This document shows positions 8,836-60,873 of a stretch of DNA of 64,000 nucleotides, piece by piece. The notes under the pieces were generated by a model that saw only the letters and a program-made list of their open reading frames with translations, searched no databases and was not told where the DNA came from. Position numbers and translations under genes: made by a program. Each line of letters starts with the position of its first letter. Position 1 is the first letter of the stretch. Source of the DNA: a virus; the IMG/VR virus record IMGVR_UViG_3300044732_000293, positions 36,842 to 100,841 of that record, one strand, 5' to 3'.

Positions 8836-10698
8836 ATGGCTGATATTATAGAAAACAATAGTTTTATGGAAACACCTCCATTGGAAAATCTTGATGAAAC
8901 AATGATTGACCAACCTACTATTGAAACAGAGGGTGGGGAAGGTGATCCTATCAAGAAAGGTGCTACTTCTGTAAAGAAGAATACCACTCCAAAGTATGAT
9001 AATGATTTTGGTCAATTAAATACCACTGCAGCTGAAACTAGTAAAAAACTAGCTGAGTTTGCTCAGATGGTGTTTAAAACTGCAGGAGTAACTCCTACAC
9101 ATAAAGGTAAACCTATTACAGATTTATCTACAATCTCTACTGTAGTATCAGATAGTAAAGCTGCTCAAGAATTATATACACAAGCCTTAAGTGCTTTAGA
9201 GTCTCCAGATTTAGATGAAGATTCTATAGCTAAATTCTATACACAAGTATTTGAAATAGAAAGTGGATTTAATCGTTCTGCTGCTATTAAGCAACAGATT
9301 AATAAAAATCAAAAGCTTGTTGCTAGTTCTTTAGATGCAAAACGTAAAAATGCAAGTCCTTATTATTCTTTACTTCTTGATGCTAATGGTGATTTTGTAT
9401 CTAAAGAACAATATAAGCGTAATGTAAGAAAGTATTATGAGGATGACCAAGCTCAGTTTCTTAAAAATAATCCTAGAGAAGCCACTTTTGATTATCGTGG
9501 AAATCCTACACAATGGATGAGAACTGATATGCCTAACCCAATGGCAGGTAAAATGTATAAAGATAAGTCTGGTAGATGGATACAACTAGATTCAAGACCT
9601 AAATTGCAAGGAACTACTGAAGGTTGGGATTTAACTTTCCAAGCCCGTATGATGAATAATGCTAAAGCAATGAGAGAAAGGATTGAAAGTTATGATGATG
9701 CTATACAGCAGATTAAAGATGATTATAATGTAAATAATCAAATTACTACAGTAAAAACTACAGAGGAAGGTGTATTTAAAGAGGGAGGTTCTGATGCTAC
9801 AACATCATTAAGTTCATCATTTAGTTTTGATGGTGATGATTTTTTAAATAGAGATGCTAAAGGAAATATTCTTAAAGTAGAAGATGCAAGTTCTAAAAGT
9901 AAAGAAGCTAATATATTTAAACCTGAATTTAAAAACTTATACAATCTAGTAGATAGAACTAAATCTATGGAAGGAGCTATTATTGTATCGGGATCTCCTG
10001 AAGATTATGCTAGTGGTGTACCTGATAAGACAGATGATAAAGTAAAAGCAAGTTTAAATCAGTTTAATATTGATTTAGATGAACATATTAAAACCTTTTT
10101 TTCTCATAGTAAGAAATTAACTGCTACTAAGTTAAAAGGAAGACCAGCTGGAAATGTAAGTTTTCAACCAATTGCTTCTGGAAATGAAAACTATCAAGCA
10201 TATCATATTACATTTGGTTCAGGTTATGCTGAAAAACATGCGGGTAGTGAAAAGAAAAAGAAGGAACATCCTGAGTATCAAAAAGGTATTACAATATTTG
10301 TTCCTAAAGATAAGGCAGGAGCAACTAGAATTGGTGCTGCATCTTTAAGAGGAAGTACTATTTCTAATACAGAAGCTGCTATAAACATGAGTAGTGATAA
10401 TACTTATAGATTTACTATACCTGGAGCAGGAACTATTGAAGCTTCTAAAATAGGTGATAGTGCATATACAGTTAGTGGTAATTTTGTAAACTACAATAGA
10501 AATACTGGTAAGTATGATACTATTGCCATTAATCCTAAAAAATTTGAAATAGGTGCAAGTATGGCACTTGATATGGACGGTCATATAAAAGAAAATGTAG
10601 ATAGTCTTATAAGTAATCTAATAAAAAATAGAACTATAAAAAACTTTCATAATTCTCAGAAAGGTGTTACTGATCCTAACTTATTAAAACGTAACTAA
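8836..10698 (+). CDS. Virion-associated protein, unknown role
   Basis: 620 residues starting 4 nt after the previous stop. The N-terminal 60 residues are acidic and low in hydrophobics. The middle (about 100-310) is helical and charged and includes RMNNAKAMRERIESYDDAIQ. The C-terminal third contains beta-rich sequence (GAGTIEASKIGDSAYTVSG). There are no cysteines in recognisable metal-binding arrangements and no export signal. Gene order places it immediately before the giant ejected-type proteins, so a packaged internal protein is the best guess; nothing in the sequence proves it. Confidence 0.65.
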   Translation: MADIIENNSFMETPPLENLDETMIDQPTIETEGGEGDPIKKGATSVKKNTTPKYDNDFGQLNTTAAETSKKLAEFAQMVFKTAGVTPTHKGKPITDLSTISTVVSDSKAAQELYTQALSALESPDLDEDSIAKFYTQVFEIESGFNRSAAIKQQINKNQKLVASSLDAKRKNASPYYSLLLDANGDFVSKEQYKRNVRKYYEDDQAQFLKNNPREATFDYRGNPTQWMRTDMPNPMAGKMYKDKSGRWIQLDSRPKLQGTTEGWDLTFQARMMNNAKAMRERIESYDDAIQQIKDDYNVNNQITTVKTTEEGVFKEGGSDATTSLSSSFSFDGDDFLNRDAKGNILKVEDASSKSKEANIFKPEFKNLYNLVDRTKSMEGAIIVSGSPEDYASGVPDKTDDKVKASLNQFNIDLDEHIKTFFSHSKKLTATKLKGRPAGNVSFQPIASGNENYQAYHITFGSGYAEKHAGSEKKKKEHPEYQKGITIFVPKDKAGATRIGAASLRGSTISNTEAAINMSSDNTYRFTIPGAGTIEASKIGDSAYTVSGNFVNYNRNTGKYDTIAINPKKFEIGASMALDMDGHIKENVDSLISNLIKNRTIKNFHNSQKGVTDPNLLKRN

Positions 10699-10701
10699 TT
10701 T

Positions 10702-15288: not shown

Positions 15289-15293
15289 TAATT

Positions 15294-21200: not shown

Positions 21201-24200
21201 GAGAGTTCTGATATTAATAGTATTAAGAGAGACTTAAGCTTTAGCCTTAACGCTGAGAAGATTGAAAAGTTGTTAAACTCTATCGTAATTAAACGATTAG
21301 TTCGTCAGAAGATGAACGGTGAGCAGTTAGTACAAGTTTCTGGAGCTGGCTTTGAGTCTAGTACTAAGTTAACTAACCCTACAGAAGAAGATATTAAGAA
21401 CTATCGTGGTACTAATGACTTACCTACATACCGTCCTGGTAAAGGAAAGAACGGTAAGACTAGTGCAATGAAAGTTAAGATTGCAATGAAAGGGGACTAT
21501 TATAAGTTACTTGAGCTTAAACATACTGACGGAGAAAAGATTGGTACAAGAGAGCGTTTGAATGAAGTGCTTAAAAATGATGAGTGGTTAGATAAAAACG
21601 ATAACCGTAAGCTTATTACTATGGTAGGTGTACGTATTCCTGTGCAAGGATTAAACTCTATGGAGTTTATGGAAGTGTATGAGTTCCTTCCTGAAGAAGC
21701 AGGGTCTATTGTTATACCTCCAGCTGAGATTGTGGCTAAATCTGGATCTGACTTTGATATTGATAAGTTAACTATATTCCAACCTAACTATTCTAAGAAT
21801 AGCAAGCAGGCTAAGTATAGTACAAATGATAATGTTAAAGGTACAGAGAATAAGATTATTGAAAAGATCCGTGAGATTTTAGAGCATCCTGATAACTTTG
21901 AAGCTCTTATTCGTCCAAACAATACTGATATTGTTAAAGGAGTAGCAGATAACTTAGCTAGTAAGAATGTTCAAGGATACAATCCTTTGGCTAATAAAAC
22001 TAGAGAAACTGCTAATAAGATTAGTCCTACTCGTACTTTAGAACCTAGATATAATCTATATAAGCATGAGTCTAATAACATTGGGAAAAAGACTTTAGGT
22101 ATTGGTGCTGTAGATAATGCCTACTCATCTATCTTTAAAAGAATAGGTGCTAGATTAGAGACTCAGTATACTCATTATCCAATTGATTTTGAAACTGGAG
22201 AATATAAGAGAGATAAAAAAACCGGTAAGATTGTACAACAAGTTCGTCCTATTAACATTAGAATGAAGCATAACAGTATGACTGTAGGTGGTAAATCTTA
22301 TATTTCTTTATCTGATATTAATACAGTTAGTGGTGAAAAGATTTCTGACTTAATCTCTCAATTGATGAACGGTTGGGTGGATATTGAAAAAGATGCTTGG
22401 ATCTTTAATATCAATGGTAACAATGTAGCTGGTCCAGTATTGTTATTCATGATTGAATCAGGTGTTGATTTTAAGACAGCTGCTCATTTTATATCTCAAC
22501 CTTTAATTGTTGATTATATCAAACAAAGAGCTGCTTCCAATAGTCCTTTCTTTGAAGCAAGTGGCAAAGGAGAGAATAAGGGTAAAGGACTTAATAAATT
22601 TAATATTAAGAAGCAGTTTATACTAGACAACTTTGAGGATGATTTACCTATTAATAAAAGTACAGGAGAACCTATTGTAAGCAATGATGGTATATATAAA
22701 ATCATTAATAAGTACAATGAGGGTGTTGAATATACTAGTGATAATCTATTAGGTGTTATTGAGAATAAAGACACTACTTCTTCTATGGCTAAAGCGGCTT
22801 TATTACATTTCTTTGAATTAGAAGACTTAATGAGTCAATTGACCAATATTAAACTAACGGTTAACTTAGATACAGCTCCTTCTAAATCATTGTTTTCTGC
22901 TCAAGAAAGACTTAGTAAAATATCTAAGTTAAATATTGTAGATGCTGTGCCAGCTGACATGGTTAGAAAGATATTGAATGAGTCTCCTATTAAGTCATTC
23001 CTTGTACAAGACTTTCAGTTAAAACTATGGGAGCCTTTAATGAAGCTTAGAGGAGATGCTAACATAAATAGCTTCTTAATAAATAAGATTGCTACTAAGT
23101 CTTATACAAATAGTTTTGATGATGCTGAGAAATATGTAGCTACATTTAAAAATGACCTTCCTTTATATCTTTTACAGAATCATTTAAAGGGGATGGACAT
23201 TACTAAGATTACTGAATACAAAGGCTTACTTATAGATAACGCTATTCCTGTACAAAATGTTCAGATTAAGAACGGTGCTTATGTAAAAGAAGGCGTAATG
23301 TATGTAGATATAGATCAGATAAAGTCTGACTTTGCAAGCATGGCTTATACAGATAAGGGTACTTATAAAGAATCAGGATTGGCTACTCTTCCTGCTCAAG
23401 CTTTTAAGATGGGTGAGACAAGTGCTAACTTCCAAGAGTATTCTAACTATGTACTAGAGCGTGAGTATTTAAGATCTATCCTTCCAGTAAGAGATAAAGA
23501 AAGCAGAGAAAGCTATGAGAATAGACTTAGAGATAGAGCTTTGGAAAGAACATTTAACTTCTATACTATGCTTAAGTCTGATAATAGTATTGCAGATGAG
23601 TTTAATAGAATTAAATCTAAGTATCCTGAGTTAGAAAAAGACTACATGATCTTTGATCAATTAGGTTATAGTCCAGGTAGCAAGTTTGATATGAACAAAC
23701 TTAAGACTCTTAAGTTAAAGTCAAGTAAGCTTGATGCTGATATGGCTAATGTTCTTCATGAAAATCTTCAGAGACTTGCTGACCCAGCAACAATTAAAGT
23801 AACTAATCCTGTAGCTAACGCTGAGATATCTAAGTTCTTTAGTAGAATGATTATATCAGAATACTTGAGAGCAGGTATTAGCAAGACTAATGATAGTATT
23901 GCAATGATTTTACCTTCAGAATCTTTAATGAAGCTTTTGGAAGAGCCTATGAGTAAGTTGACTAAAGAAGGATTGACTGATGAGTTTTTAGAAAAGTATT
24001 CTAATTTGTTTGATTCAAACTGGTCTAAGTCTGCTACAGCAGTTCGTAATAGATTCAGAAACTATATCCAAACTACTAAACCTACAATACAAGAACCTAT
24101 TACAGAAGCTACTGCGGTAACTCCTATCACTCCTTCTATAGCTAGTTTTAAAAATAAGTTTGCAAAGAGTGAGCTTGAGCCTATATTAAACGCTAATAAA

Positions 24201-24653
24201 AACACTATATTTGTATACCCTGTAAATGAAAACGGTACAGGTGATAACATTGCTAAAGTGTACAGTGACGCTGGAAATAGTGCGGGTGTAGTTTTAAAAG
24301 CTGTAGGAAAGAACTGGACAGATGCCACTTATGATTCTAACATTAGTTTTATAAACCAATCATTAGATGTTATTGGTGCTCATTTAAGTAATGGTTTCCA
24401 AGTAGCATTCCCTGAGTTTGGTTTAAACTTAACTAAGGTTAAAGAGGAATCAGTAGATTTTTTAACTAAGTCTGCTCCTAAAACGTTTGACTATTTGGCT
24501 ACAGAGTTATATAAAAGATTTGGATACGTTCATCCTGGAGCTGAGCAAATGCTAGGCTTTAGAAAAGAGTTCCAATCCAATCAACCTATATCAGACCAAG
24601 AGATTGATGCTGCTATTAATAAGAAATTTGAAGATTCTAAAAACTGTAATTAA
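15294..24653 (+). CDS. Giant virion RNA polymerase with zincin protease motif (3119 aa)
   Basis: The key evidence is DFDID at residues 2153-2157, preceded by VRIPVQGLNSMEF (near 2113) and IVIPPAEIVAKSGS. This is the same arrangement as the beta-prime NADFDGD active-site region with its upstream R.P segment, and as the DFDID active site of the crAss-like virion RNA polymerase (phi14:2 gp66 type). The three Asp would bind the catalytic Mg2+. Residues 670-674 are HEGWH, a HEXXH zincin motif, with a possible downstream third ligand in LEEFLAEDYRKYG, suggesting an embedded metalloprotease. In the known relatives such a polymerase is packaged, ejected and transcribes early genes. At 3119 residues it is longer than the single-chain phi14:2 enzyme as I recall it. 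It starts MAC, like its downstream neighbour. Confidence 0.85.
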   Translation: MACRLSDEQVEALYTTVLGDIVATKNSGGIYNPDTAIRTLYQTLMAAGADQTNALDYIQHVPRMINAAYGSLEEIADYLQDSNVSIDNLNKMRRDFKDINNVMSFLDLNNNTIEIIEEIVEDSNPSTPVVPTDVYTEIENSDVEKKQKLYNNRSFIAAPETALAVFNQEAQDYDGAVAEDNIADPDPKKKTYYAVVRKINALMNLLNASTANNLKMGTTTGIFMNLVKASSIDEADLYVSDTKFINQSEENRAYHNDSALALVYTDKNGKVLYFDEEGNITSKEAGGKLVYGKIRNVYSDARTGNKYVPRVQTVERKVEKGMGTQEELQAERQKEIDVLEGARKFLKENPTGSLMFSITPGRNGYVNEDFSTINTIGSIQLPDGFKPTVAKEDTGIYKSGGVYFHVPGYSLPILVRRPKFSQLNNNLAENLADLLFDNTNNKQSNAEKIAIVKQFTYSNDTKVFDRDGKIFVKQGEQELDTTVAANREAFLQNLNGQVVNINKDLVNGYVDMPVNLDGSVQVQKELYNNFLTSNFYTHLAKNAEGKVVSMNAYNNIFPTVESQTKLFGETKTTKTAPVSLTEATPTDNKISPLAELLKNTDFSLKKSILENSDATEEQIEKARAWYTSSPLAKVVPFETMFHVVNSNALATFTLSGITLFQGSNYTDLYHEGWHAFSQLFLTRDQKVDLYNETRKLTGSFKTADGRTIKFSAASDIQLEEFLAEDYRKYGMADGKYIVAGRGTRNTLFRRILNFLKAVFKGYSIKDAISEATAIPKIGELYEKLYIGNINDYSASLNNVQFKILNKGAQPLDDKNIDGGLNYQDSMTLVETIDSLMASTLQDYGVNLGVLFTNPEFTAPLYAEIKNKLENMLNAPDLSESSKRILNFALNEWGDYTAVSKGEQELGVIAFHKKRSSYLTFDEKYSDLTGAEQDINENAADVVKDEDNQLSITENEARESFGANAFERKGNELSVRELASNQTVYLIKSLPALDKNGKVEMNALGVPKLTDFNRTWGVVINTVQGAIDEVDMYRKLSEASTRFPELKALVERLGDPMEKTQTSDWPAMNMWINFHRDFSVYRVPVREVRIVKSEIPGEEGSTFSVEFTETNPTFKQVENTFKSQFDAVRNNKYVRNTPQGNQLNIESILNDFPKSTLMSGTSKLNSEQAIKFLKAIGLYMTDNQAVRESLNENYTAVTYLHSALSRINYFNSSKEAGSKITINSPIDFLRNELKNVTTKDSKGNTTLLHKGESSNIEKLLNIEGTNSGKYSNNSVENVNGDSIFDLSLNNTVTKQFAELNAAGKNYNDVVGKPHMAHLNFRNNPAAKYSIWMNSMFHIPTGNFETANMNQRRVGKTNAETVTIDIVNLDGIKEVVSNEAKAQFRVNGIKTTSADPATKFIMDLHTMLMRGVIEAPRHASKSTAYGYSVSLLNTPFNAKSRHLYISSEYFADDAVANNATVAMLKPKIAAEMERIAMLRAGMLPNIPGFNERGQTFTMFDDILSDGLKADLIEMANADDSLVLLEDAELSKRISNDISKYINRLTQENLDVFGEMPFISKDILRGGARGSAKSIVSLIGAGANLTDAQLKTIALKSFTVNALIHNMESMAMVYGDLAMYNHNKEEFHKRNASIGSTGRIFASGQATTNFVNNLGRAYAKKIGATERTFDGSINSVIFKDNNVESVYYNEYLDALVAKGYTKEQAASVLKPYSEMNEGDAQGWVTFDSYRMFSILEGAWSEKQNDLYNKIINEEEVDPKEISEFFPTKKFQYAGPVKSDKLHLQAFHKFSLVPLIPSLIKGTNMQTVHDNLVKQQVDYALFESGSKLATITKDGQYDDLYDNKEERTTKPWNQGDAEYTTNKVFIQYLKDQVDIQSTWKNKTVFSTQLRKLIINDLFKQGIATSKDFNKLVTDFEGLLDDLQTKKKNELLAEAGWTQDKKGNYNGSVKSLMDFVERELARQELPEHDVDFVRESSDINSIKRDLSFSLNAEKIEKLLNSIVIKRLVRQKMNGEQLVQVSGAGFESSTKLTNPTEEDIKNYRGTNDLPTYRPGKGKNGKTSAMKVKIAMKGDYYKLLELKHTDGEKIGTRERLNEVLKNDEWLDKNDNRKLITMVGVRIPVQGLNSMEFMEVYEFLPEEAGSIVIPPAEIVAKSGSDFDIDKLTIFQPNYSKNSKQAKYSTNDNVKGTENKIIEKIREILEHPDNFEALIRPNNTDIVKGVADNLASKNVQGYNPLANKTRETANKISPTRTLEPRYNLYKHESNNIGKKTLGIGAVDNAYSSIFKRIGARLETQYTHYPIDFETGEYKRDKKTGKIVQQVRPINIRMKHNSMTVGGKSYISLSDINTVSGEKISDLISQLMNGWVDIEKDAWIFNINGNNVAGPVLLFMIESGVDFKTAAHFISQPLIVDYIKQRAASNSPFFEASGKGENKGKGLNKFNIKKQFILDNFEDDLPINKSTGEPIVSNDGIYKIINKYNEGVEYTSDNLLGVIENKDTTSSMAKAALLHFFELEDLMSQLTNIKLTVNLDTAPSKSLFSAQERLSKISKLNIVDAVPADMVRKILNESPIKSFLVQDFQLKLWEPLMKLRGDANINSFLINKIATKSYTNSFDDAEKYVATFKNDLPLYLLQNHLKGMDITKITEYKGLLIDNAIPVQNVQIKNGAYVKEGVMYVDIDQIKSDFASMAYTDKGTYKESGLATLPAQAFKMGETSANFQEYSNYVLEREYLRSILPVRDKESRESYENRLRDRALERTFNFYTMLKSDNSIADEFNRIKSKYPELEKDYMIFDQLGYSPGSKFDMNKLKTLKLKSSKLDADMANVLHENLQRLADPATIKVTNPVANAEISKFFSRMIISEYLRAGISKTNDSIAMILPSESLMKLLEEPMSKLTKEGLTDEFLEKYSNLFDSNWSKSATAVRNRFRNYIQTTKPTIQEPITEATAVTPITPSIASFKNKFAKSELEPILNANKNTIFVYPVNENGTGDNIAKVYSDAGNSAGVVLKAVGKNWTDATYDSNISFINQSLDVIGAHLSNGFQVAFPEFGLNLTKVKEESVDFLTKSAPKTFDYLATELYKRFGYVHPGAEQMLGFRKEFQSNQPISDQEIDAAINKKFEDSKNCN

Positions 24654-50393: not shown

Positions 50394-51011
50394 ATGGACT
50401 TATCTCGTTTAAAAGGACATGTTCCTGACACAGTTATTGCTCAGATTCCTTCTATACAAGAAAAGTTTGGTATCAACACTGCATTAAGACTTGCACATTT
50501 TTTAGCTCAAGCTGGACATGAATCTGCTGGATTTAGAGTTACACAAGAAAACCTTAACTATTCAGGTAAAGGTCTTAAAGGAATCTTTGGTAAGTATTTT
50601 AAAAGACCTGATAAGACTTTTGATGAACCAAAGGTACTAGCTTATGCTAAAAAACCTGAGAAGATTGCAAATCTTGTTTATGGTGGTAGAATGGGTAACG
50701 GTCCTGAGGCATCAGGTGATGGTTATAAGTTCAGAGGCCGTGGTTATATCCAGTTAACTGGTAAAGATAACTATACAGCGTTTGGTAAATCAATTGGTGT
50801 AGATATGGCTGCTAATCCTGATTCAGTAGCTACAACTCATGCTTTATCTTCTGCAGCTTGGTTCTGGAGTAAAAATGGTTTAAATGCCATTGCTGATCAA
50901 GGAGCTACAGATGAAGTAGTTACTAAGATTACAAAAAGAGTTAACGGTGGTACAATTGGTTTAGCTGATCGTATCAAACACTTTAAAGAGTATCATACAC
51001 TACTTGTTTAA
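50394..51011 (+). CDS. GH19 endolysin (chitinase-like lysozyme)
   Basis: 205 residues, the size of single-domain GH19 phage endolysins. AHFLAQAGHESAGF places the catalytic Glu at E43 and QENLNYS places the second acidic residue near E52. YGGRMGNGPEASGDGYKF and RGRGYIQLTGKDNY are the classical GH19 substrate-cleft motifs, and NGGTIGLADR is the conserved C-terminal segment. No signal peptide, so release depends on a holin such as the protein at 49361-49609. It cleaves peptidoglycan glycan strands. Confidence 0.95.
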   Translation: MDLSRLKGHVPDTVIAQIPSIQEKFGINTALRLAHFLAQAGHESAGFRVTQENLNYSGKGLKGIFGKYFKRPDKTFDEPKVLAYAKKPEKIANLVYGGRMGNGPEASGDGYKFRGRGYIQLTGKDNYTAFGKSIGVDMAANPDSVATTHALSSAAWFWSKNGLNAIADQGATDEVVTKITKRVNGGTIGLADRIKHFKEYHTLLV

Positions 51012-51027
51012 TTCTAAATAAATCAAA

Positions 51028-51159
51028 ATGGCTGTAAAGAAAGGTTCTAAATCTGACAACAGAAAAGTCTCTTTTGGTAAACGCAAAGGAGGAAAGGCTT
51101 CAAAAACATCTGGCCCTAAAGCTAAGAAAGTTAGTAAGTACAGAGGTCAGGGTAGATAA
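51028..51159 (+). CDS. Small basic protein (43 aa)
   Basis: Lys/Gly/Ser-rich throughout (KKGSKSDNRKVSFGKRKGGK, then KAKKVSKYRG). ATG 51028 lies 16 nt after the endolysin and the stop is inside the terminator stem. Such composition suggests nucleic-acid binding; function unknown. Confidence 0.65.
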   Translation: MAVKKGSKSDNRKVSFGKRKGGKASKTSGPKAKKVSKYRGQGR

Positions 51160-51179
51160 TTTCTACCCTTTCTTTTTTT
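51150..51179 (+). terminator. Intrinsic terminator after lysis cassette
   Basis: GGGTAGA, loop taatt, TCTACCC, followed by TTTCTTTTTTT. The stem includes the end of the small basic gene. It separates the lysis cassette from the surface-protein genes. Confidence 0.92.
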
Positions 51180-51192
51180 AAAAATTTATACT

Positions 51193-51822
51193 ATGTTAAT
51201 ATTAACTAAATTCCGAGAGTATATACTCTACGGTTTTATGACCTTTGTAGGTGCTTGGCTAATTTTTGCTTTAAGTTTTATGCTCTACTGTTTATTTTTA
51301 GAATTTACAGGAGGTCAAGAAAAACTTCAGCAAATGTCTAATGAGTTTTCCTGGAAGTTTGATGGTACATTTAAAAATCATCCAGGTAATATTTGGTATG
51401 AAGAGCCTAAGACAATTGCTATAGGAATGATTACTAACAAGATTCAAATTGGAAACTTAGCTGGTAATAGAAAACTAGAATTTGGTATAAAGAATGTCTT
51501 AGAAGAAGTGTATCAAGCTGAAGGCTACGATTTAGATCATGCTTCTGACAATGTTTTAAAAGTTGATATAGTATATCTAGACGTATTAAAGACACAATCT
51601 AGTTTTTCTATAGTGCATAATAACAAAGAATCTGTAGTTATTAGACTGCAAGGTTTCTTGTATAAAGGTGATAAGCTCGTTAAAAAGATTCTTGTAGAAG
51701 AATCTGCAGATGAGATATCAATGTCCACTCTTCTTATAGATGAGGGAGGTAAATTTAACAATCAAAATTTATCTACTGCTATTAAAAAAGCATGTAGTTC
51801 ACTTGTAAAGAAACTTAATTAA
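51193..51822 (+). CDS. Membrane-anchored periplasmic-type protein (209 aa), secretion module
   Basis: An N-terminal hydrophobic helix (MTFVGAWLIFALSFMLYCLF) anchors a roughly 165-residue domain. Its second half, NVLKVDIVYLDVLKTQSSFS then VVIRLQGFLYKGDKLVKKIL, has the strand pattern of small outer-membrane-assembly or auxiliary lipoproteins (YajG/LptE/CsgG-like alpha-beta folds). It is the first gene after the terminator and ends in TAATG overlap with the exported cohesin/dockerin-like gene, so it likely helps that protein. Family is uncertain. Confidence 0.55.
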   Translation: MLILTKFREYILYGFMTFVGAWLIFALSFMLYCLFLEFTGGQEKLQQMSNEFSWKFDGTFKNHPGNIWYEEPKTIAIGMITNKIQIGNLAGNRKLEFGIKNVLEEVYQAEGYDLDHASDNVLKVDIVYLDVLKTQSSFSIVHNNKESVVIRLQGFLYKGDKLVKKILVEESADEISMSTLLIDEGGKFNNQNLSTAIKKACSSLVKKLN

Positions 51823-53927
51823 TGAAGAAACTGTTATTTTTTCTTACTCTTTTATTTGTTATTCAAGCCTCAGCTCAACAAAAGTTTAAAGCTGCTGCAT
51901 CAGTAGGTGGTCCATCTCTTAATAGAGGTGGTGAGTTTGACTATGTAATTTATGGTAATGGTATGAACAATGCTACTACTCGTCAGTTACTATTTGATTT
52001 ACAATATGATAGAAACAATTTTGAGATTGTATCTGTAAATCATACTGGTACAGGTGGTAATGGTGGCATTCTCCCTCAAGGTTCTACTATTAATCTTTCT
52101 TATTATGATTATCCTGGATATAACTTTCTTACAGTGAGCTCAGGATCTAGTGCTAATAATACAACTAATGGTACTACTAACTATCAATATGCACAGTATA
52201 ATTATAGCAATACCAATCCATATGCTATATTAAGAGTTACTCTTACTTGGTCTACTAATTCAGCAATGCCCTATAGTGGTTATAGTGACTTTATAAAAAT
52301 TAAATATAGACTTAAAGCTACATCTACTGCTTATACATTTAATCCTATTAAACTAAACTTTGTAGCTGGTTGGACTGCTGCTGGTGCCTATGACGCTACA
52401 GTAATGGAAGCTCCATTAACTACAGCTGTAGCCATGAACCAAAACTTTGGTAAATATGTAACAGCTAAGGTAGATTTAAATTCTAACTTATTTAATCTTT
52501 CTAATCTTAAAGTATCTTTTAGAGATACTATTACAAATACTGGAGTGATGTTTCCTGTAACTTCTACAGGAGATGTAGATGTAAATCAATCTCAGTTAGC
52601 TGCAAATAAAGTTTATGAAGTTAGTTTAATGCATGACATGGATAAATTATATGATATCTATGGTAATGCAATCACTATATCTGATTTTACTACAGCTCAG
52701 AATGAATTTACTTCAATGGGACTGGATGGATCTAACGGTCAAAACTTAAAGACTGGACAATCTTTATATGCTGCTGACATTAATAGAAACCAAAAGATAG
52801 ATGGAGGTGACTTACCTAGATTACTAGGTCAAGTAGCTAATATAGATACACTAACAAAACTTCCTAGTACTTATGTTGCAGGTAGTGCTGGATATATGAG
52901 TATTCCTACTTGGAATGCAGCTGAAATACGTACACTTGCTGGTCAAGTTGAATGGGTGTATGTCAATGTTGGAACATCAAATAGTACTCTGTATATTGAT
53001 ATGAGAAAGTTTCCTAGTGGAACTGTAGCTAGTACTTTAAAAAGTATACAATTATTTGATGTATACACAGGACCTATAGAATATATAACAGAAGATGCTG
53101 CTTGGGCTCAGTATAAAATTCCTACTACTATACCAAAAGCTGTAGATGGTAGTTCATTATACTCTGTATATATAAGAAAGAATAATAATGATTATATGTT
53201 CCAAGCTGAACCTAGTTTTAATACTTCTGTAAATAGTTCATGGGGAGCTATAAGTACTACTAACTGGAAGAATATAACATATCCTAGAACTTATTTAACT
53301 ACAGGAACTCTTGGTACAAATGCTGTGTTGGATCTTAAATATCTTTTATGGGGTGACGTAAATAGATCTCACTCTTCTCAAGTTGTGACTGTTTCAGGTG
53401 GATCTTCTACTGTACAAACAAATGCCGTTAATAGTTTACAAACTAACACTGCGTTTAGAAATATGTCTACATTCTCTACAGGAGGATTTATTAACACTCC
53501 ATATGATGTAAGTTCTGTAGATATAAACTTAACAAATCTAACTGTTACAAGCAATACTATAGAAATACCTGTAGGTTTAGACACTAAAGGTTTAAATGTA
53601 TCTGGTTTACAGTTTGAGTTCACATACGATCCTAAAAAGATTAAGTTTGAAGAGCTTATCCCTACACTTCCTGCTACTTGGTATATTTTTGCAAATGATA
53701 ACAATGGTAGAGTTAAATTCGGAGCATTAGATCAAAATAAATCAGTTGCTTTATCTGGTATAAGCACACCATTTAAACTTAAGTTTAGTACAATTGGTGA
53801 AGGTGTAAATATTATTACATCTGTAAAAGTATCAACTCTTATGGATGCTAGTGACGCTAAAGGTAATCAATTAGGTATCAATCTAAATTCTACACAAATT
53901 AAATTAACCGGTTATAACAACTTTTAG
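51822..53927 (+). CDS. Exported protein with cohesin-like and dockerin-like parts (701 aa)
   Basis: The N-terminus (KKLLFFLTLLFVIQASAQQ) is a signal peptide with likely cleavage after ASA. Residues about 30-215 look like a beta-sandwich similar to cohesin. DINRNQKIDGGD at 319-330 fits a 12-residue calcium loop (D1, N3, N5, I8, D12) as in dockerin, and GDVNRSHSS near 510 is a degenerate second loop. The C-terminal 130 residues (LNVSGLQFEFTYDPKKIKFE; FKLKFSTIGEGVNIITS) are another cohesin-like sandwich. Self-association by cohesin-dockerin type contacts is plausible. Exported proteins of this type are unusual for a phage. Confidence 0.72.
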   Translation: MKKLLFFLTLLFVIQASAQQKFKAAASVGGPSLNRGGEFDYVIYGNGMNNATTRQLLFDLQYDRNNFEIVSVNHTGTGGNGGILPQGSTINLSYYDYPGYNFLTVSSGSSANNTTNGTTNYQYAQYNYSNTNPYAILRVTLTWSTNSAMPYSGYSDFIKIKYRLKATSTAYTFNPIKLNFVAGWTAAGAYDATVMEAPLTTAVAMNQNFGKYVTAKVDLNSNLFNLSNLKVSFRDTITNTGVMFPVTSTGDVDVNQSQLAANKVYEVSLMHDMDKLYDIYGNAITISDFTTAQNEFTSMGLDGSNGQNLKTGQSLYAADINRNQKIDGGDLPRLLGQVANIDTLTKLPSTYVAGSAGYMSIPTWNAAEIRTLAGQVEWVYVNVGTSNSTLYIDMRKFPSGTVASTLKSIQLFDVYTGPIEYITEDAAWAQYKIPTTIPKAVDGSSLYSVYIRKNNNDYMFQAEPSFNTSVNSSWGAISTTNWKNITYPRTYLTTGTLGTNAVLDLKYLLWGDVNRSHSSQVVTVSGGSSTVQTNAVNSLQTNTAFRNMSTFSTGGFINTPYDVSSVDINLTNLTVTSNTIEIPVGLDTKGLNVSGLQFEFTYDPKKIKFEELIPTLPATWYIFANDNNGRVKFGALDQNKSVALSGISTPFKLKFSTIGEGVNIITSVKVSTLMDASDAKGNQLGINLNSTQIKLTGYNNF

Positions 53928-53928
53928 A

Positions 53929-54300
53929 ATGAATAAATTAGAAAAATTATTAAACTTAGGCTTTTTACTAACTCTTGTAGTTGCAAGTTGTAGAAAAGTA
54001 GAACCTGTACCGTTTCAAGTAATTGATTTAGGTAAACAGTCTACATCTACAAGTATTAAGTCTATTGTACAGAATGGTACTACAGTAACTGCAGAGTTTG
54101 TAACAACTCCGGGAGCCAAATATTCTGTACAGATAATTCCATTTGGCTCAGAAGAGCCTGCTAAGAAAGATGGATTTACAGCTAAAGATAGTTTAACTGT
54201 TAAATCTTATAGCTTAGTTGATTTACCTAAAAAGCACTATGATTTCATATTTATAGACATTAGCGGTAAAGAAGTAAAGTTTCCTATATTAATTAAATAA
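53929..54300 (+). CDS. Lipoprotein with beta domain (123 aa)
   Basis: GFLLTLVVASC gives a lipobox with C21 as the lipidated residue, followed by a beta-rich domain (TTVTAEFVTTPGAKYSVQII; KKHYDFIFIDISGKEVKFP) resembling an Ig/FN3-type fold. It starts 1 nt after the cohesin-like gene. Predicted location is outer or inner membrane, facing the periplasm or surface. Confidence 0.7.
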   Translation: MNKLEKLLNLGFLLTLVVASCRKVEPVPFQVIDLGKQSTSTSIKSIVQNGTTVTAEFVTTPGAKYSVQIIPFGSEEPAKKDGFTAKDSLTVKSYSLVDLPKKHYDFIFIDISGKEVKFPILIK

Positions 54301-54318
54301 ACTATAAAAACATACATT

Positions 54319-54624
54319 ATGTCAGAAGAAGTAGAACAAGAATCAACCGGTAAGTCCTTTAAAGGAATTCTTATCACTTTAGTAAGCACCGTTACACTAG
54401 GTGTAGGCGGATTTGTTACTAACAAATTAACAGGTGGTGGTGATGAGAAAGAAACTCCTGCTGCTGCAGCCCCAGTTATTAACATTACCAACTCTAACCA
54501 GCAAGCTGCTGCTAGTGGTGGTAAAACTGTTATTATTAAGGAGAAAGAAGTTGCAGCTAAACCTGCTGCTCCTGTTAAAAAGAAAGAAGGAGACGAGTTT
54601 AAAGAAGAAGCTCCTAAATGGTAA
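54319..54624 (+). CDS. Small membrane protein with low-complexity tail (101 aa)
   Basis: One hydrophobic segment (GILITLVSTVTLGVGGFVT) is followed by a Gly/Ala/Asn/Gln/Lys-rich tail (NITNSNQQAAASGGK; KEKEVAAKPAAPVKKKEGDE). A TonB- or linker-like periplasmic reach is conceivable, but no motif proves it. Confidence 0.6.
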   Translation: MSEEVEQESTGKSFKGILITLVSTVTLGVGGFVTNKLTGGGDEKETPAAAAPVINITNSNQQAAASGGKTVIIKEKEVAAKPAAPVKKKEGDEFKEEAPKW

Positions 54625-54651
54625 TATATTATTAAGAATTAAAAAGTTTTC

Positions 54652-55239
54652 ATGGAAGATAAAAAACAACCAGAAGCTGGTGGGTTCAAGGAACTCTTAG
54701 GCTCAATGATGAGAAGACGCTGGTTTATTACAGCGTTAGTATTAGGATCATTTATGATGATCATTGTAGCTATTTTTATAGCTGTATCTAATAATGCCTC
54801 TATGGCTGGAGAATGGAAAGAGTTATTAATGTTATTATTAGGAGCTTTTATTGGCTCTTATGGTAAGATTATAGATTACTGGTTCTCTGATACAGATAAA
54901 GATAAAATGCTTGTACAGAAGATGGATGAAGAAGATGGTACTACTCTTTCTCATACTAATGATATGAAAGAGTCTAACAAGCCATATGCTCCAACTATTC
55001 CTGATGCATTTGTTCAAGCTGCTATAAAGACTGCAGATAGAACTCATGAGTATAATAGAGATGAACAAGAACATCGTCAAGTTTTAGAAGCTGATCAACA
55101 AGAGCATAAACAAGAGATGGAAAAGTTAGAATTCTTGCATCATGAGCACAAACAGTGTGTGCATGAGTGGGGTGATACTGACGGTGATGGAGACTTAGAG
55201 TGTATCCATTGTGGCAGAATCAAGGATGAACATTGTTAA
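54652..55239 (+). CDS. Second holin-like membrane protein with Cys/His tail (195 aa)
   Basis: Two hydrophobic helices (WFITALVLGSFMMIIVAIFI; ELLMLLLGAFIGSYGKIID) resemble holin topology. A long charged helix rich in His/Glu (HEYNRDEQEHRQVLEADQQE) leads to a C-terminal CVHEWGDTDGDGDLECIHCG, a possible metal-binding ribbon. It lies outside the endolysin cluster, so it could instead be a channel or scaffold of the export module. Confidence 0.6.
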   Translation: MEDKKQPEAGGFKELLGSMMRRRWFITALVLGSFMMIIVAIFIAVSNNASMAGEWKELLMLLLGAFIGSYGKIIDYWFSDTDKDKMLVQKMDEEDGTTLSHTNDMKESNKPYAPTIPDAFVQAAIKTADRTHEYNRDEQEHRQVLEADQQEHKQEMEKLEFLHHEHKQCVHEWGDTDGDGDLECIHCGRIKDEHC

Positions 55240-55263
55240 CTTAACTAAACACTATGGATTCTG

Positions 55264-55482
55264 ATGACCAAAAGACAGAGACTAAAAATACTTCGTTCCT
55301 CACGGGATGCCAGCTTAATGGCAGCCATGTTCTTCCTGCCATTAGGATACGATCTCTTGTTCAAGACGCTCTTAGATTACACTGGGAGCTTTTGGGCTAC
55401 AGATATCATATTTTATTGTCTATCAGGAGTATTTTGGCTCTCATACTTCTTGCTGTCCAAATCTTTAAAGACTAAAACATGA
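55264..55482 (+). CDS. Small two-helix membrane protein (72 aa)
   Basis: Basic N-terminus (MTKRQRLKILRSSRD), then two hydrophobic helices (AAMFFLPLGYDLLF; IIFYCLSGVFWLSYFLL) and a Lys-rich end. The stop overlaps the CsgG-like start by ATGA, so translation is coupled to that gene. ATG 55264 is preferred over another frame starting at 55254, which lacks a coherent protein pattern. Function unknown. Confidence 0.6.
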   Translation: MTKRQRLKILRSSRDASLMAAMFFLPLGYDLLFKTLLDYTGSFWATDIIFYCLSGVFWLSYFLLSKSLKTKT

Positions 55483-56192
55483 AATATTTTGTAATACTAG
55501 CTTGTTTACTATTTACTATTGGTAGTAAAGCACAAATTGCATCTACTAAAACAGAAAACTATAAAGCTTCTTTTGAAAAAGCTATAGATATTTCTGATTT
55601 CTTAGACTATGATGGCCCACAAATACCTATACAGATATTAAAGTGTGGCATATCAGACGAAATGTATGAGATGTATCCTGAGCTTAAAGAAAAGCGTGTA
55701 GGTCTTGGCGTAGCCAACATCTCTATGGAATATTTAGAGAATCTTAATAGATTCAAGTTTACAGAGGATAAAACTGAGATCAAGAACAGGATGGTTAAAC
55801 AATTCCAAGCATCGGCTGCTGGAATATCTGAGAACAAACTGGATGGTCGTGGTAAGATCAATCTTGCCAAATACTTTGTAACAATTGAATGTTATGATTA
55901 TAGTATATCAGAAGATGAAAGTGTTAGCCTTAAAGATGGTACAAAACAGCTTATGGTTACGAGGATTGGTTTACAGGTTAGATTCACTGATGCTGAAACT
56001 GGTGTGGTTTTTAGTGGTTCTGGACTTGGAGAAGCAAAGACTACTAAAGAGACTTCAGGATTATCAGATGCAGCCTTAGATCCTGTTAAATTTAATCAAT
56101 CTACTATCAGTATTTCTACTAAAAAGGCATTGGATATAGCTTGTGCTCGTATCCTAGATCGTATGATTAAGAAAGGTATATTTACTAAATAA
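55479..56192 (+). CDS. CsgG-like outer-membrane secretion channel protein
   Basis: 237 residues. A signal peptide (KYFVILACLLFTIGSKAQ) precedes the mature chain. RVGLGVANISMEYLENLNRF followed by KFTEDKTEIKNRMVKQF, AKYFVTIECYDYSISEDESV and IGLQVRFTDAETGVVFSGSG give the alpha/beta pattern of CsgG, including the VNVSTGEI-like strand turn. E. coli CsgG forms a nonameric outer-membrane pore for curli subunits; this protein is slightly shorter and lacks the lipobox Cys. With a signal-peptide protein on either side of its operon, a dedicated export pore is plausible. Confidence in CsgG kinship is moderate to good, in pore function lower. Confidence 0.65.
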   Translation: MKYFVILACLLFTIGSKAQIASTKTENYKASFEKAIDISDFLDYDGPQIPIQILKCGISDEMYEMYPELKEKRVGLGVANISMEYLENLNRFKFTEDKTEIKNRMVKQFQASAAGISENKLDGRGKINLAKYFVTIECYDYSISEDESVSLKDGTKQLMVTRIGLQVRFTDAETGVVFSGSGLGEAKTTKETSGLSDAALDPVKFNQSTISISTKKALDIACARILDRMIKKGIFTK

Positions 56193-56200
56193 TTACTATT

Positions 56201-56308
56201 ATGGCAAACGCTAAGAAAAAGAAAAGAGCTATGAGATCAGTTAAATCTGGAGTTAAAACTGCAGCTTTAATCAAATCTAATTTAGTCATCTTAAATAAGT
56301 TAAAGTGA
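56201..56308 (+). CDS. Tiny basic protein (35 aa)
   Basis: ATG 56201 gives ANAKKKKRAMRSVKSGVKTA and a short hydrophobic end. The stop TGA abuts the TTG start of the next gene. The composition matches the two other tiny basic proteins of this block (50218 and 51028). Confidence 0.55.
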   Translation: MANAKKKKRAMRSVKSGVKTAALIKSNLVILNKLK

Positions 56309-57565
56309 TTGAAACAGTTTATATTTGTTCTATTTTTAGTAGTATTACTACCGTTTTATGCGTATAGCCAAACTCTTATACAGACGTTTCAAGACCCTTG
56401 TACTAAAGTTATTAGTACGTTTAGCATTCCTATTAGTGGTAGCACTGTTATTGTGTTTTATAATAAGTCTAGGACTTTTACTGCCGCTGATATATCTTCT
56501 GGTGCATTTCAGACTTGGATTAATCAGGTATATGAAGATTATCGTAGATTATCTCCCTGCTCTGTGGCTCAGACTGCACAAACTAGCACTACAGTTACAG
56601 CCAATGCTGTCTCTGCTGCAGTAGGTGCTGCTGTAAGCTCTGCAACATCATCTGCTGCCTCTAGTGCGGCTTCTTCTGCTGCTTCTGCAGCTGCAGCATC
56701 TTCTGCTCCTCCACCTACTAGTAGCTCTGCTCCTAGTTCAAGCAATTCTCAAGGATCGAGCTCGGAGTCTAGTAGCAGCAGCTCTAGTAGTTCATCAGAA
56801 TCTAAATCTGAATCTAAGAGTGAAAGTAGTTCTGAATCTAAATCAGAAGAAAAATCAGAGTCTAAGTCTGAATCTAAATCTGAAAAGAAGTCTGAGTCTA
56901 AAAAGGATTCTAAATCCTCTAATAAGTCTCAGGCTAGGATGAATCCTATATTATTTAATTCTGATCTCACTGCAGGTCAAAATGTTGATGCTAGTGTAGC
57001 ATTAGTGCTTACAGGAGGTATATCACAGTCTTCTATGACTGGAGCTAGCTCATGGGGCGTCACTGGTATGGTATGGAGTAATCTAAAACAGTTTGTTGTC
57101 TCTTCTAGATATACTAAAATGAATTTCAATGGAGGGAAGTTAGAGTCTATATCTAACTATGGTTTTACTACAGCAGTGATGTTTGGAAACGTTTCTAGTT
57201 TCTTAACATATGCTTACATCTACCCTTTGGGTAAATGGGGTGTTACGGGTGCTAACTACACATTGGCTTTTAGTAAGGACAATGTAATGCACAATCTTCT
57301 ACTCTTCTACACTAAGCCTTTTTCTGTTAATAGAAGGCTAAATCTATCTCCTGAGCTTTATATCTCAGGGAGTCCTGTTATGTACATGTTTGATACTAAG
57401 GACTTTGTTATATCCGAGGATATGGGTTTTATCACAGGTGTGTCCGGTGATTATTCTTTTACTAAACGTTTTAAATTAAATGTAGGATTGAGGACTAGTC
57501 TTTCAACTAATCCTCAAATTCCTATATTATTATTTATGGTGGTAGGTTCTAAAATTAATCTTTAG
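56309..57565 (+). CDS. Exported Ser-rich protein with C-terminal beta-barrel (418 aa)
   Basis: TTG start, since TGA lies directly upstream in frame and the first residues form a signal peptide (KQFIFVLFLVVLLPFYAYSQ). Residues about 21-90 are a small domain with two Cys (QTFQDPCTKVISTF; YEDYRRLSPCS). About 95-160 is Ala/Ser-rich. About 160-205 is a Ser/Glu/Lys repeat region (SESKSESKSESS type). The last 200 residues alternate hydrophobic and polar as in outer-membrane beta-strands (VVSSRYTKMNFNGGK; FLTYAYIYPLGKWG), and end in VVGSKINL. It probably sits in the outer membrane. Shares its operon with the CsgG-like gene. Confidence 0.7.
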   Translation: MKQFIFVLFLVVLLPFYAYSQTLIQTFQDPCTKVISTFSIPISGSTVIVFYNKSRTFTAADISSGAFQTWINQVYEDYRRLSPCSVAQTAQTSTTVTANAVSAAVGAAVSSATSSAASSAASSAASAAAASSAPPPTSSSAPSSSNSQGSSSESSSSSSSSSSESKSESKSESSSESKSEEKSESKSESKSEKKSESKKDSKSSNKSQARMNPILFNSDLTAGQNVDASVALVLTGGISQSSMTGASSWGVTGMVWSNLKQFVVSSRYTKMNFNGGKLESISNYGFTTAVMFGNVSSFLTYAYIYPLGKWGVTGANYTLAFSKDNVMHNLLLFYTKPFSVNRRLNLSPELYISGSPVMYMFDTKDFVISEDMGFITGVSGDYSFTKRFKLNVGLRTSLSTNPQIPILLFMVVGSKINL

Positions 57566-59073
57566 TATTTACCTTTTGAATCTACATTAAATATTCTTGC
57601 ACCATCAAATACTACTGCTTGACCAGCTTCAGAATACTTTTTCATAGTTTCTTTGTTAAAGTGATCAAATCTTGCTCCTTTAACACCTATAAAGAAAGCT
57701 TTTTCTGAATAACTATGACAGCTATCTTCAGCATCTGTAATAACTAATGCATTATCAGGATGTCTCTTGATATGATCTACTACTACATTAATTGATGTTC
57801 CACCACTAGTTCCTAGATTTGCTATTGAAAATAAGTCTGTTTTAAGTTCTCTTACCGAGTTGTTAAATATGTAAATCTTATTTAACATACCTAAATCTTG
57901 CATCTTAAGAGCAAATGCTTTACAGAAGTCTAGCTTATCTATTCTTGTTCCATCAACAGCTCCTACGCCACAACTATCAGACATTGAACCAGATACGTCT
58001 ATATAGATATTAATCTTACCTATAGACTTAGTATCTTTAATCATAATGTCTTCAATCATGAACTTTCTTAGTTTTGGATGTAAAAATACAAATTCATCTA
58101 ATCCTGCTATATTATCAGAGTTAAATAAGTCTTCATGGATTGTTTCTTTCTTAGCAGAAAAATAGTTTTTGGACTTATCCATTAACTTCTTAATCTTGTC
58201 TTTAAGAGAGCCCATAGACATGTTTATTCTTCTAATATCTGCAGCAACTTCTTTAATATATTCAGGACTTAGTTTACCTGCACCACCACCTTCTTTAACG
58301 TTATTAAACATTTCATCTTGAAGGTCTTGTGGAATAGACTCATCCATTGCTTTACACGTATCTTGAGCGTCTTGTATAGCGTCATCCATCATATTTTTAG
58401 ATAATCTATTGTCAAGCATTTTGTTTATAAGGTCATCCATACCTTGATTATCAAAGTCTGAATCACCGTTAAGACCGCTCATTAATTGCTTAGCTGCATC
58501 TGGATCTATATATTCTAACATAGTCATCTGCATAATATAATAATGCATCAGATTTCTAGTAAAGACTGCTGACTTAAGGCTGCTTGTTTCTGTCATAATT
58601 TTACCTACTGGATTATTAGAACGTTCTAAAAACTTATACTGTGTATAGTTTTTATCTGTACGCTCTTCAAACTCTAGTTTGTCCATTTTATGATAGAACA
58701 TTTTAAAGATATCATTCTTTACATGAGTTGGAAACTTTTTATAAGTCTCTGACATCTTTTTGTGAAATGCTTGCCAGTCAGGCTTTTGATCATCTTGTAA
58801 ACTACTAAATCCTGCACTTTTTGCAAATCTTTGATAGTATTTACTAGTATTATTAGGGTCATTTACATGAGTATCAACTACTGTCTTTAATCTTTTCTCA
58901 TCTATATAATGCATGTGAGGTTTGATAAGATCCATCTTTTTATAAAAGTTTAACTTACCAAATAAACCTTCACTATCTTTATAATGAGATTGTATTTCTC
59001 CCTTTTTTACTTTCTCTAGGATGGTATAAACATTCTTATACTGCTTTCCTGTACTGAGACTTCTTAGTGCCAT
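57562..59073 (-). CDS. VWA-domain protein, partner of MoxR-type ATPase
   Basis: 503 residues. The C-terminal 150 residues form a von Willebrand A domain with a complete MIDAS: DVSGSMS at 359-365, TSGGTS and ITDAED. The N-terminal 330 residues are helical and charged, as in CoxE/BatA/RavA-partner proteins. The gene lies directly downstream of the MoxR-type AAA+ gene (59218-60873), the usual pair in which the ATPase and the VWA protein act as a remodelling chaperone. Its stop overlaps the convergent + gene by 3 bp within TTAG, leaving no space for a terminator. Confidence 0.88.
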   Translation of the reverse strand: MALRSLSTGKQYKNVYTILEKVKKGEIQSHYKDSEGLFGKLNFYKKMDLIKPHMHYIDEKRLKTVVDTHVNDPNNTSKYYQRFAKSAGFSSLQDDQKPDWQAFHKKMSETYKKFPTHVKNDIFKMFYHKMDKLEFEERTDKNYTQYKFLERSNNPVGKIMTETSSLKSAVFTRNLMHYYIMQMTMLEYIDPDAAKQLMSGLNGDSDFDNQGMDDLINKMLDNRLSKNMMDDAIQDAQDTCKAMDESIPQDLQDEMFNNVKEGGGAGKLSPEYIKEVAADIRRINMSMGSLKDKIKKLMDKSKNYFSAKKETIHEDLFNSDNIAGLDEFVFLHPKLRKFMIEDIMIKDTKSIGKINIYIDVSGSMSDSCGVGAVDGTRIDKLDFCKAFALKMQDLGMLNKIYIFNNSVRELKTDLFSIANLGTSGGTSINVVVDHIKRHPDNALVITDAEDSCHSYSEKAFFIGVKGARFDHFNKETMKKYSEAGQAVVFDGARIFNVDSKGKY

Positions 59074-59077
59074 TTTA

Positions 59078-59227
59078 TTAATTTTTAGGGTTATTATTTA
59101 GAGTGGGCTCACCAGCCATAGAAAATACTTCTTTCATTTGACCAGTGAGCTCATCTAAACGATATACTATTCCGTCCTTTAAATAGACGTAACCTCTTAT
59201 ATGTATATAACCCTGTTCTAAAAAGGG
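59078..59227 (-). CDS. Possible -1 frameshift extension of the MoxR-type gene (46 extra residues)
   Basis: The ATPase gene ends ATC CCT TTT TAG. C CCT TTT is a canonical X XXY YYZ -1 slippery heptamer (59227-59221) directly before the stop. A slip would continue as L then EQGYIHIRGYVYLKDGIVYR and on to a TAA at 59078, giving about 598 residues. This -1 frame looks protein-like, has no ATG, GTG or TTG start of its own, and fills most of the 144-bp gap before the VWA gene. A homopolymer indel in the assembly is the alternative. Confidence 0.4.
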   Translation of the reverse strand, partial: PFLEQGYIHIRGYVYLKDGIVYRLDELTGQMKEVFSMAGEPTLNNNPKN

Positions 59228-60873
59228 ATAGTAATATTTGTTTGCATCATAGCATCAGTTACTACTTCAGATGCTACTTCTCCTTCAGCCATCATAGCTT
59301 CAAAGTCTTCAGTCACTTGATTTTCTCTAGCAGGATGACTTTGTAAAATATACTGCATTGATAATTCAATTTCTTCTACTTGACCTTCATCCATGATACC
59401 ACGAGAAGTGTATGTATTGATTAAACCTTCAATCTCAGCAATAGCTAGTTCTAATTGCTCATTAGAGCTATGAGAATGTAACATCTCTACCTTAGACATA
59501 ACTGCTTTAATTTCTGGACTCATCAACTTATTTTGTAACTCTGAACCTGCGGCTTGAGAAATCATAATCTGAGCTGTCTTTACAAGAGCTTTATCAAGAC
59601 TAATATCCCAGATGTAACTAACAGCCTTAGTTAAACTAGGTACAAATGTTAATGTACGATCTGAGCTATTTTGATAACCTACTTCTAGATACTTCTCTAA
59701 TTTGTTTGGTGGTACTTCTAAGCTTTCAATTTCTTGCTTATTAGGTACACCAATAGAGAATTTCTCTTTATAGTTACGAGCTCCCTTGCTAAAGTATTTA
59801 GCTAATTCACCTGCAGATACACGGTTAACAGTCATCTTCAACATGAAACGGTCCCAGAATGGAGATCCAATCTCATCTTTAGGAATTTCATTACATGTAG
59901 CTACAAATAATTTCCACTTACATGGAATCTTGTGCTTACCGTTAAATAAGAACTTCTCGTTCATTACACCTAACATAGCATTTCTAATACCAGAGCTAGC
60001 TTTATCTACCTCATTGATGATAACAATCTCTGCATCAGCAATTGGTGTATTAAGATCATACTCATTATTAGTAAATAACTTACCTAAATCAGGCATACCC
60101 TTGATCTCTGAAGCCTTAGTACCTTCGTCTGTCTCAAGAATATAAATCTTGTTTGCAAAGTCTTCTGGAGACATATTACCGTCTCTGTTTAACCATGCTT
60201 TGGCATAGTCAATAATTGTTTTAGTTTTAGCTACTCCCGGTTGACCTACAAGAAGACATGGTAATCCTGTAGCTTCTGCTAGTGCTAGCATTTTAAACAC
60301 TTCTTCTTTATTGATTAATGAAGTGTCAATTGTTCTTACTTCCTGAGTAGTTTTCTTTGTAATAGATTTTACTTTAGACATGTTATTTTGTTTGTATTTG
60401 AAATTTTGTGGAGCATTGGGATCAACGCTAATATCTGATATTTGTGATTCTATAGTAGGTGTACTAAAAACTATATTAGGAGAAACAGTTCCTGATATAA
60501 CATATTTAGCTTTAACCCAACGTTGTACACCTGTAGAGGAAGATCTAACTTCCCATGTATTACCATCATTACCTGTCATTTGTGTACCTACTGGATACAT
60601 TGTAGCACTAGCCGTAGGACTAGGTCTACTTTGTAAAGGAGGATTTATCTTTACAGGAGTTCTTAATGCCGGATTAGAGGCTTGCAAAAGCTGAGAGGTC
60701 TGAGGTTGCTCCTGCATGGACTTCTGCTTTTCCTCGTTCAGCATTTGTGTTACTGTCTCTAGATAAGCTTGTACTTCCTTGGTTCCCATCATCAAATCTT
60801 TCGTCAATCTTAGGTAAGCTTTCCATATTGAATGCATCTGAGGAGTTGTTAGCTCCATTGGCGGTTGTTCCAT
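59218..60873 (-). CDS. MoxR-type AAA+ ATPase
   Basis: 551 residues. GQPGVAKT (210-217) is Walker A, EIVIINEVDKASSG the Walker B region (INEVD instead of the usual DE), VATCNE the sensor-1 segment and WDRF a likely Arg-finger neighbourhood. The N-terminal 165 residues are Pro/Ser/Gln-rich, with a small domain around NDGNTWEVRSSSTGVQRWVK. An internal ATG at 60381 (MSKVKS) would give a classical-length MoxR. It should remodel a target together with the VWA protein encoded next. The first 200 bp overlap another ORF in a different frame. See the frameshift candidate at its end. Confidence 0.85.
   Translation of the reverse strand: MEQPPMELTTPQMHSIWKAYLRLTKDLMMGTKEVQAYLETVTQMLNEEKQKSMQEQPQTSQLLQASNPALRTPVKINPPLQSRPSPTASATMYPVGTQMTGNDGNTWEVRSSSTGVQRWVKAKYVISGTVSPNIVFSTPTIESQISDISVDPNAPQNFKYKQNNMSKVKSITKKTTQEVRTIDTSLINKEEVFKMLALAEATGLPCLLVGQPGVAKTKTIIDYAKAWLNRDGNMSPEDFANKIYILETDEGTKASEIKGMPDLGKLFTNNEYDLNTPIADAEIVIINEVDKASSGIRNAMLGVMNEKFLFNGKHKIPCKWKLFVATCNEIPKDEIGSPFWDRFMLKMTVNRVSAGELAKYFSKGARNYKEKFSIGVPNKQEIESLEVPPNKLEKYLEVGYQNSSDRTLTFVPSLTKAVSYIWDISLDKALVKTAQIMISQAAGSELQNKLMSPEIKAVMSKVEMLHSHSSNEQLELAIAEIEGLINTYTSRGIMDEGQVEEIELSMQYILQSHPARENQVTEDFEAMMAEGEVASEVVTDAMMQTNITIPF

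Follow-up and report, generated by a model that had tools for sequence, protein, structure and literature searches.

We describe a gene cassette in a window of 64,000 nucleotides, the whole stretch analysed here (bases 36842–100841 of the 100,841-bp virus record IMGVR_UViG_3300044732_000293). The cassette, at window positions 51193–57565, comprises eight plus-strand open reading frames (ORFs) of more than 70 codons, following a terminator-like hairpin, as the original prediction had noted. With fair probability it is a conserved, horizontally transferred, presumably late cassette that would remodel the outer surface of an infected Bacteroidota cell with adhesins. The computed features behind this reading are the gene set, fold matches, export signals, a fixed gene order, occurrence in two classes of phage, interchangeable carbohydrate-binding domains, and type IX sorting tails in many relatives of the type found in Flavobacterium phage immuto. 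Genes are named below by their first window position.

51149–51169 (tail to 51178), plus strand: terminator-like hairpin, 8-pair stem with T-rich tail, TTCTTTTTTT
51193–51822, plus strand: membrane-anchored periplasmic protein, distantly YajG/TraT-like; transmembrane (TM) helix at residues 18–36
51822–53927, plus strand: protein of the adhesin slot, secreted (signal peptide); conserved Ca loops of dockerin type and a cohesin domain at the C terminus (PF00963)
53929–54300, plus strand: small lipoprotein (lipobox, Cys21); relatives resemble a stand-alone C-terminal domain of the type IX secretion system (T9SS)
54319–54624, plus strand: small membrane protein; one TM helix (16–34), Ala/Lys-rich tail
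54652–55239, plus strand: probable two-TM inner-membrane protein; invariant core YWFSDTDKDKMLVQKMDEEDG and Cys/His motif, from alignment
55264–55482, plus strand: small hydrophobic protein, in 20 loci
55479–56192, plus strand: CsgG-fold exported protein, the most conserved module member (AlphaFold2/Foldseek, signal peptide)
56309–57565, plus strand: outer-membrane protein with FapF-like barrel (signal peptide, structure model)

Synteny and spread in crAss-like and T4-like phages

IMG/VR was scanned independently with 55479 and with 54652 as queries, giving 486 and 491 viral relatives or loci, respectively; the contigs are partly redundant, and these counts do not equal numbers of independent phages. 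Fifty-six loci of the 54652 scan with at least 6 kb present on both sides were counted: the CsgG-like gene was found in 54, the adhesin in 54, the barrel in 53, 51193 in 52, 53929 in 48, and 54319 in 45 (and in 71 of the 82 loci of one other set). The usual order is 51193, 51822, 53929, 54319, 54652, 55479, 56309. The main components belong together beyond chance: each has homologues in hundreds of viral loci, for the most part similarly ordered; conserved synteny of the CsgG-like gene with the 51822 and 56309 genes, proposed earlier as a check, is borne out.

The window phage is crAss-like. Its record encodes CrAss_Ring_2 (PF25702, E 1.7e-21), and an ORF of 3,119 amino acids at window 15294–24653 carries a DFDID motif, as do crAss-like virion RNA polymerases, making the ORF a candidate for that enzyme. 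A Bacteroidota host is suggested by the A/S/G-Q ends of the signal peptides and by the host of a cultured relative (Flavobacterium sp. LMO8, the laboratory partner of phage immuto). Among 24 larger records with the cassette, the crAss ring protein was present in nine and a T4-like gp23 above the family cut-off in 10 others. One of the T4-like phages is the cultured Flavobacterium phage immuto (NC_055915). Its gp013–gp018 form the same core set as the window cassette (lectin, cohesin with T9SS tail, small TM protein, CsgG-like protein, barrel), with a YajG-like gene adjoining; its genes are mostly annotated as hypothetical and, in contrast to the window, the tail is fused to the cohesin protein instead of forming a separate lipoprotein. 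Two cassette contigs of 335 and 269 kb (L095/G015 and L093/G009) hold extra gp23-like fragments, and may be chimeric or repeat-bearing.

The window copy of 55479 is 82–85% identical to its counterparts in the nine gp23 phages that remain when immuto (54%) is set aside; among the T4-like phages, the CsgG-like protein can be 84% identical where the capsid is 37% and the terminase 30% identical. In a tree of the 55479 family the crAss-like copies cluster together next to those of the T4-like phages (support 83/99), which is consistent with a single cross-class transfer. In all, the cassette is found in at least two unrelated phage classes.

Because it is common to phages with unrelated capsids, the cassette is probably not a virion part. 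That the proteins are virion components or decorate particles, with adhesins serving, for example, in mucus or surface binding, would fit their carbohydrate-binding domains, which are typical of tail fibres and capsid decorations, and C-type lectin folds are generally known from virions. The Sec and lipoprotein signals, the occurrence of the same cassette beside unrelated virion types, and its location away from structural genes speak against this, and we regard it as very unlikely. The virion-component reading was rejected on the two virion classes and the export signals: the CsgG-like and cohesin-like proteins, whose identification as ordinary virion parts would have told against an export module, do not resemble such parts.

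Exported proteins and their folds

All four export signals predicted at the outset were recovered: signal-peptide-like N-termini in 51822, 55479, and 56309, and a lipobox (Cys21) in 53929. Four further proteins had been said to carry membrane helices; hydropathy supports 51193, 54319, and 54652, while 55264 has hydrophobic stretches below the threshold of this simple test. Signal peptidase I (SPI)-like sites occur in 139 of the 148 adhesins and in 113 of the 126 barrel proteins, and a lipobox-like motif in 115 of 138 lipoproteins related to 53929.

The cohesin/dockerin assignment of 51822 holds up. Its cohesin match (PF00963, E 8e-5) reaches 23.2 bits, just below the cut-off of 24.1, and that of the immuto homologue is above the Pfam cut-off. 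A dockerin-type loop pattern is kept in 51 of 65 family members (shuffled sequences, 0.0) and a second motif, GD[VI]NxSHS, in 57 of 65 (shuffled, 0.1). Pfam domains in the 65 members are cohesin (31), C-type lectin (17), LCCL (6), PA14 (5), and T9SS tail (4). By sequence, cohesin domain and dockerin Ca loops both occur in this family, and its members may bind by cohesin–dockerin contacts. The domain counts and conserved motifs therefore point to a gene slot that keeps a Ca-loop/cohesin chassis and exchanges carbohydrate-binding domains.

Immuto gp015 combines cohesin with a T9SS tail that scores 34.6 bits (cut-off 27). When immuto gp017 was used as the seed of a scan (113 relatives), a T9SS tail was present in 48 of 80 loci, on the cohesin protein in 46; over all sets together the tails are C-terminal in 56 of 59. 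In the window clade 51822 has no such tail, and the gene after it encodes lipoprotein 53929; PF18962, the T9SS sorting domain, is matched by four of 17 relatives of 53929 (best E 7.2e-6), and relatives of 53929 also match the immuto tail at 8.6e-7. The fused arrangement in immuto and the split one in the window clade suggest a functional link between 51822 and 53929. In another locus (L084:13980–14849), a protein with a signal peptide comes after that phage's tail-fibre-like genes and is a second candidate for export.

For 55479, an AlphaFold2 model built with 46 homologues (predicted local distance difference test, pLDDT, 75) has CsgG (4uv2) as its top Foldseek match (E 8e-7, probability 1.00), with PelC close behind. 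Identity is 79–97% across 45 aligned viral homologues. Conserved peptides of this family, searched against 84,980 bacterial and archaeal genomes, returned a single relative, in an Ignavibacteriales metagenome-assembled genome (L086); this protein is 37% identical to 55479 (hhalign, 99.9%), exceeds the Pfam CsgG cut-off (E 1.1e-6), and shows a lipobox by eye. The window copy itself has no Pfam match, and no CsgG link was obtained with the 55479 profile against PDB or by hhalign against E. coli CsgG. The predicted CsgG-like pattern is thus upheld as membership of the CsgG family at the fold level, the Foldseek match and the L086 intermediate being the sole links. By the genome search done, the lineage appears almost confined to phages. 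The L086 operon (9992–17428) encodes two CsgG-like proteins, an 825-aa transglutaminase/TPR protein, a CHASE2 cyclase, and a 428-aa exported protein, and recalls the CsgG/FecR/cyclase operon of pelagiphages; the outer-membrane protein of L086 has no detectable relatedness to 56309.

The model of 56309 comprises a signal peptide, a small N-domain, a long helix, a disordered Ser/Ala/Lys linker, and a C-terminal barrel of 12 strands, in agreement with the outer-membrane barrel predicted earlier. Its start codon is TTG, 116 nt past the preceding stop, which is a caveat on the gene call. The 12 best PDB matches in Foldseek are FapF (E 5e-7), followed by OmpG and KdgM-type porins (3e-6). The modelled architecture is FapF-like, although by E-value alone FapF would not stand out. 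The presence of the sugar porins KdgM and NanC among the matches would suit an uptake device, with the barrel and the CsgG-like ring bringing nutrients or cofactors into the infected cell, as was considered earlier for phage curli pores (PMC7029224, PMC9599517); such a device leaves the swappable surface adhesins and sorting tails unexplained, and is in our estimate most improbable.

Relatives of 51193 match Lipoprotein_16 (YajG) in 31 of 40 cases (best E 1.7e-6) and TraT in four of 40; the window copy matches weakly (E 5e-4, under the cut-off) and, unlike TraT/YajG lipoproteins, is TM-anchored and not lipidated. Searching PDB with the profile of 51193 yielded no meaningful match. A common origin of 51193 and 55479 was considered and is unsupported (hhalign, 11.6%).

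Of the two TM helices of 54652, one was called by hydropathy and the second read from the sequence; its invariant core is membrane-proximal, most relatives add EF-hand-like loops and the Cys/His motif, and it matches no known family. Frames 55254–55475 and 55264–55482 are overlapping alternatives, both open, with relatives of each in approximately 16–20 loci. PHROG searches gave no known function for 54319, 54652, or 55264, and no cultured phage was hit by tblastn with 54652 or 51193.

These small proteins bear on the main rival reading, help in lysis, which owes that rank to lysis genes adjoining or intermixed with the cassette. Here the cassette would break or gate the outer membrane at the end of infection, the CsgG-like ring and the barrel being its outer-membrane factors; 54652, 54319, and 55264 would act in the manner of holins. 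The cassette lies directly downstream of an endolysin gene (50394–51011; GH19; PHROG endolysin, E 7.6e-73), a small holin-like protein (49361) is nearby in 47 of 56 loci, 54652 reads in the alignment like a two-TM holin with both termini inside, and a lysis role was proposed for the CsgG of phage Melnitz (PMC9004378). On the other hand, the hairpin at 51149 separates endolysin and module, no module gene has a PHROG lysis match, and adhesins with lectin, PA14, cohesin, and LCCL domains and type IX tails are unexpected in a lysis device. We consider the lysis reading unlikely, though a good deal less so than the virion and uptake readings.

Known secretion modules and the proposed assembly

Phage CsgG modules are already known. 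Pelagimyophages carry CsgG/CsgF, discussed as 'sibling capture' (PMC7029224); Melnitz has CsgGF, for which control of lysis was proposed (PMC9004378); pelagiphage podoviruses and myoviruses have in common a complete curli module, FecR and adenylate cyclase included, which was transferred across families (PMC9599517); and a survey of marine phages lists csgG first among its most abundant virulence genes (PMC7003362). Like the window cassette, the pelagiphage and Melnitz curli modules (type VIII secretion) are phage-borne and multigenic, contain a CsgG-family protein, have a conserved order, are shared by podovirus-like and T4-like phages, and have a proposed surface or aggregation role. They differ in having CsgF, curlin repeats, FecR, and adenylate cyclase, none of which, nor CsgE, was found in the window cassette; its CsgG-like protein is non-lipidated, its cargo of cohesin/lectin type, and its hosts likely Bacteroidota. 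No module gene gave a Pfam or PHROG match to CsgE, CsgF, or curlin repeats; curlin-repeat genes are present in Melnitz. Tblastn with E. coli CsgG as query recovers the proteins of pelagiphages and Melnitz (37–40%) and not that of immuto, and the present family is therefore regarded as separate from theirs.

FapF, the Pseudomonas functional-amyloid exporter, shares with 56309 the signal peptide, helical N-part, linker, and C-terminal 12-strand barrel; identity is 6–8%, and generic porins score nearly as well. FapC-like amyloid repeats or a Fap amyloid subunit were not seen among the module proteins. Cryophage, a Bacteroidetes phage, has reported phage-encoded T9SS cargo, including a PA14 protein (PMC7468147), and resembles the cassette family in its sorting tails on phage proteins; it differs in that these are variable single genes with no reported cassette of CsgG-like protein, barrel, and lipoprotein, and the window's own adhesin has no tail. 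The original claim that no phage system with this set has been described accordingly narrows: the exact set was not found in the literature searched, while phage CsgG/curli modules and T9SS cargo are described. Similarly, of the proposed secretion or surface-display system, the phage-borne export and surface module is supported (synteny, export signals), and a curli-type pore is not supported (no lipobox, no evident membrane hairpins, no CsgE, CsgF, or curlin).

In the reading that we favour, surface remodelling with adhesins, the genes would be expressed late in infection and adhesin 51822 exported by Sec. It would cross the outer membrane via the module's own parts or, when tagged, via the host type IX system; immuto-type phages would use the host T9SS, and the window clade the module's own or a shared route. 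Its retention at the surface would depend on a periplasmic ring of CsgG fold (55479), the FapF-like barrel (56309), and the sorting-domain-like lipoprotein (53929); the anchored YajG/TraT-like 51193 and the small inner-membrane proteins 54319, 54652, and 55264 may belong to the same envelope assembly. Cohesin–dockerin contacts between adhesins, which might polymerise them, and binding to cell-surface sugars would yield a coat that blocks competing phages (superinfection exclusion) or keeps host cells together near burst.

Several points weigh against this reading. Lysis genes adjoin or intermix with the cassette. The window's own 51822 has no T9SS sorting domain (PF18962) in Pfam, and its 53929 has no significant Pfam match, PF18962 included. 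The FapF likeness of 56309 is barely above that of generic porins. A lipobox-like motif was found by pattern in one of 105 homologues of 55479, most of which have an N-terminal signal ending in an SPI-like AQ/SQ/GQ site. The segments of 55479 matching the CsgG membrane hairpins are polar, the second being about nine residues shorter, and membrane-inserting hairpins are not evident; lipid-facing scores are −0.17 and 0.04, where E. coli CsgG has −0.61 and −0.89, by a simple score on segments aligned by hand. That 55479 forms a ring lying against the inner side of the outer membrane is judged as probable as a pore.

Rather unlikely, though conceivable, is a separate display machine that is neither curli, Fap, nor T9SS, in which the CsgG-fold ring and FapF-like barrel export and assemble cohesin–dockerin fibres whose lectin domains are interchangeable; in some phages this cargo would be rerouted via the host T9SS.

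If surface remodelling is correct, an adhesive new surface on the infected cell is not peculiar to SAR11/OM43 phages; the data indicate that it arose with different parts in abundant phages whose hosts are likely Bacteroidota, and that a single multigene module has been transferred between the crAss-like and T4-like groups. They also suggest that phages make use of the type IX secretion system of their hosts. As the cultured immuto carries the cassette core, the long-standing question of the purpose of phage secretion and adhesion modules becomes directly testable.

Neighbouring genes

Downstream of the module, on the minus strand (window 57562–60873), lie two genes whose products resemble a VWA protein and a MoxR-like AAA ATPase, followed by a probable gene for uracil-DNA glycosylase; the pair and the glycosylase gene adjoin many crAss-like copies of the cassette.

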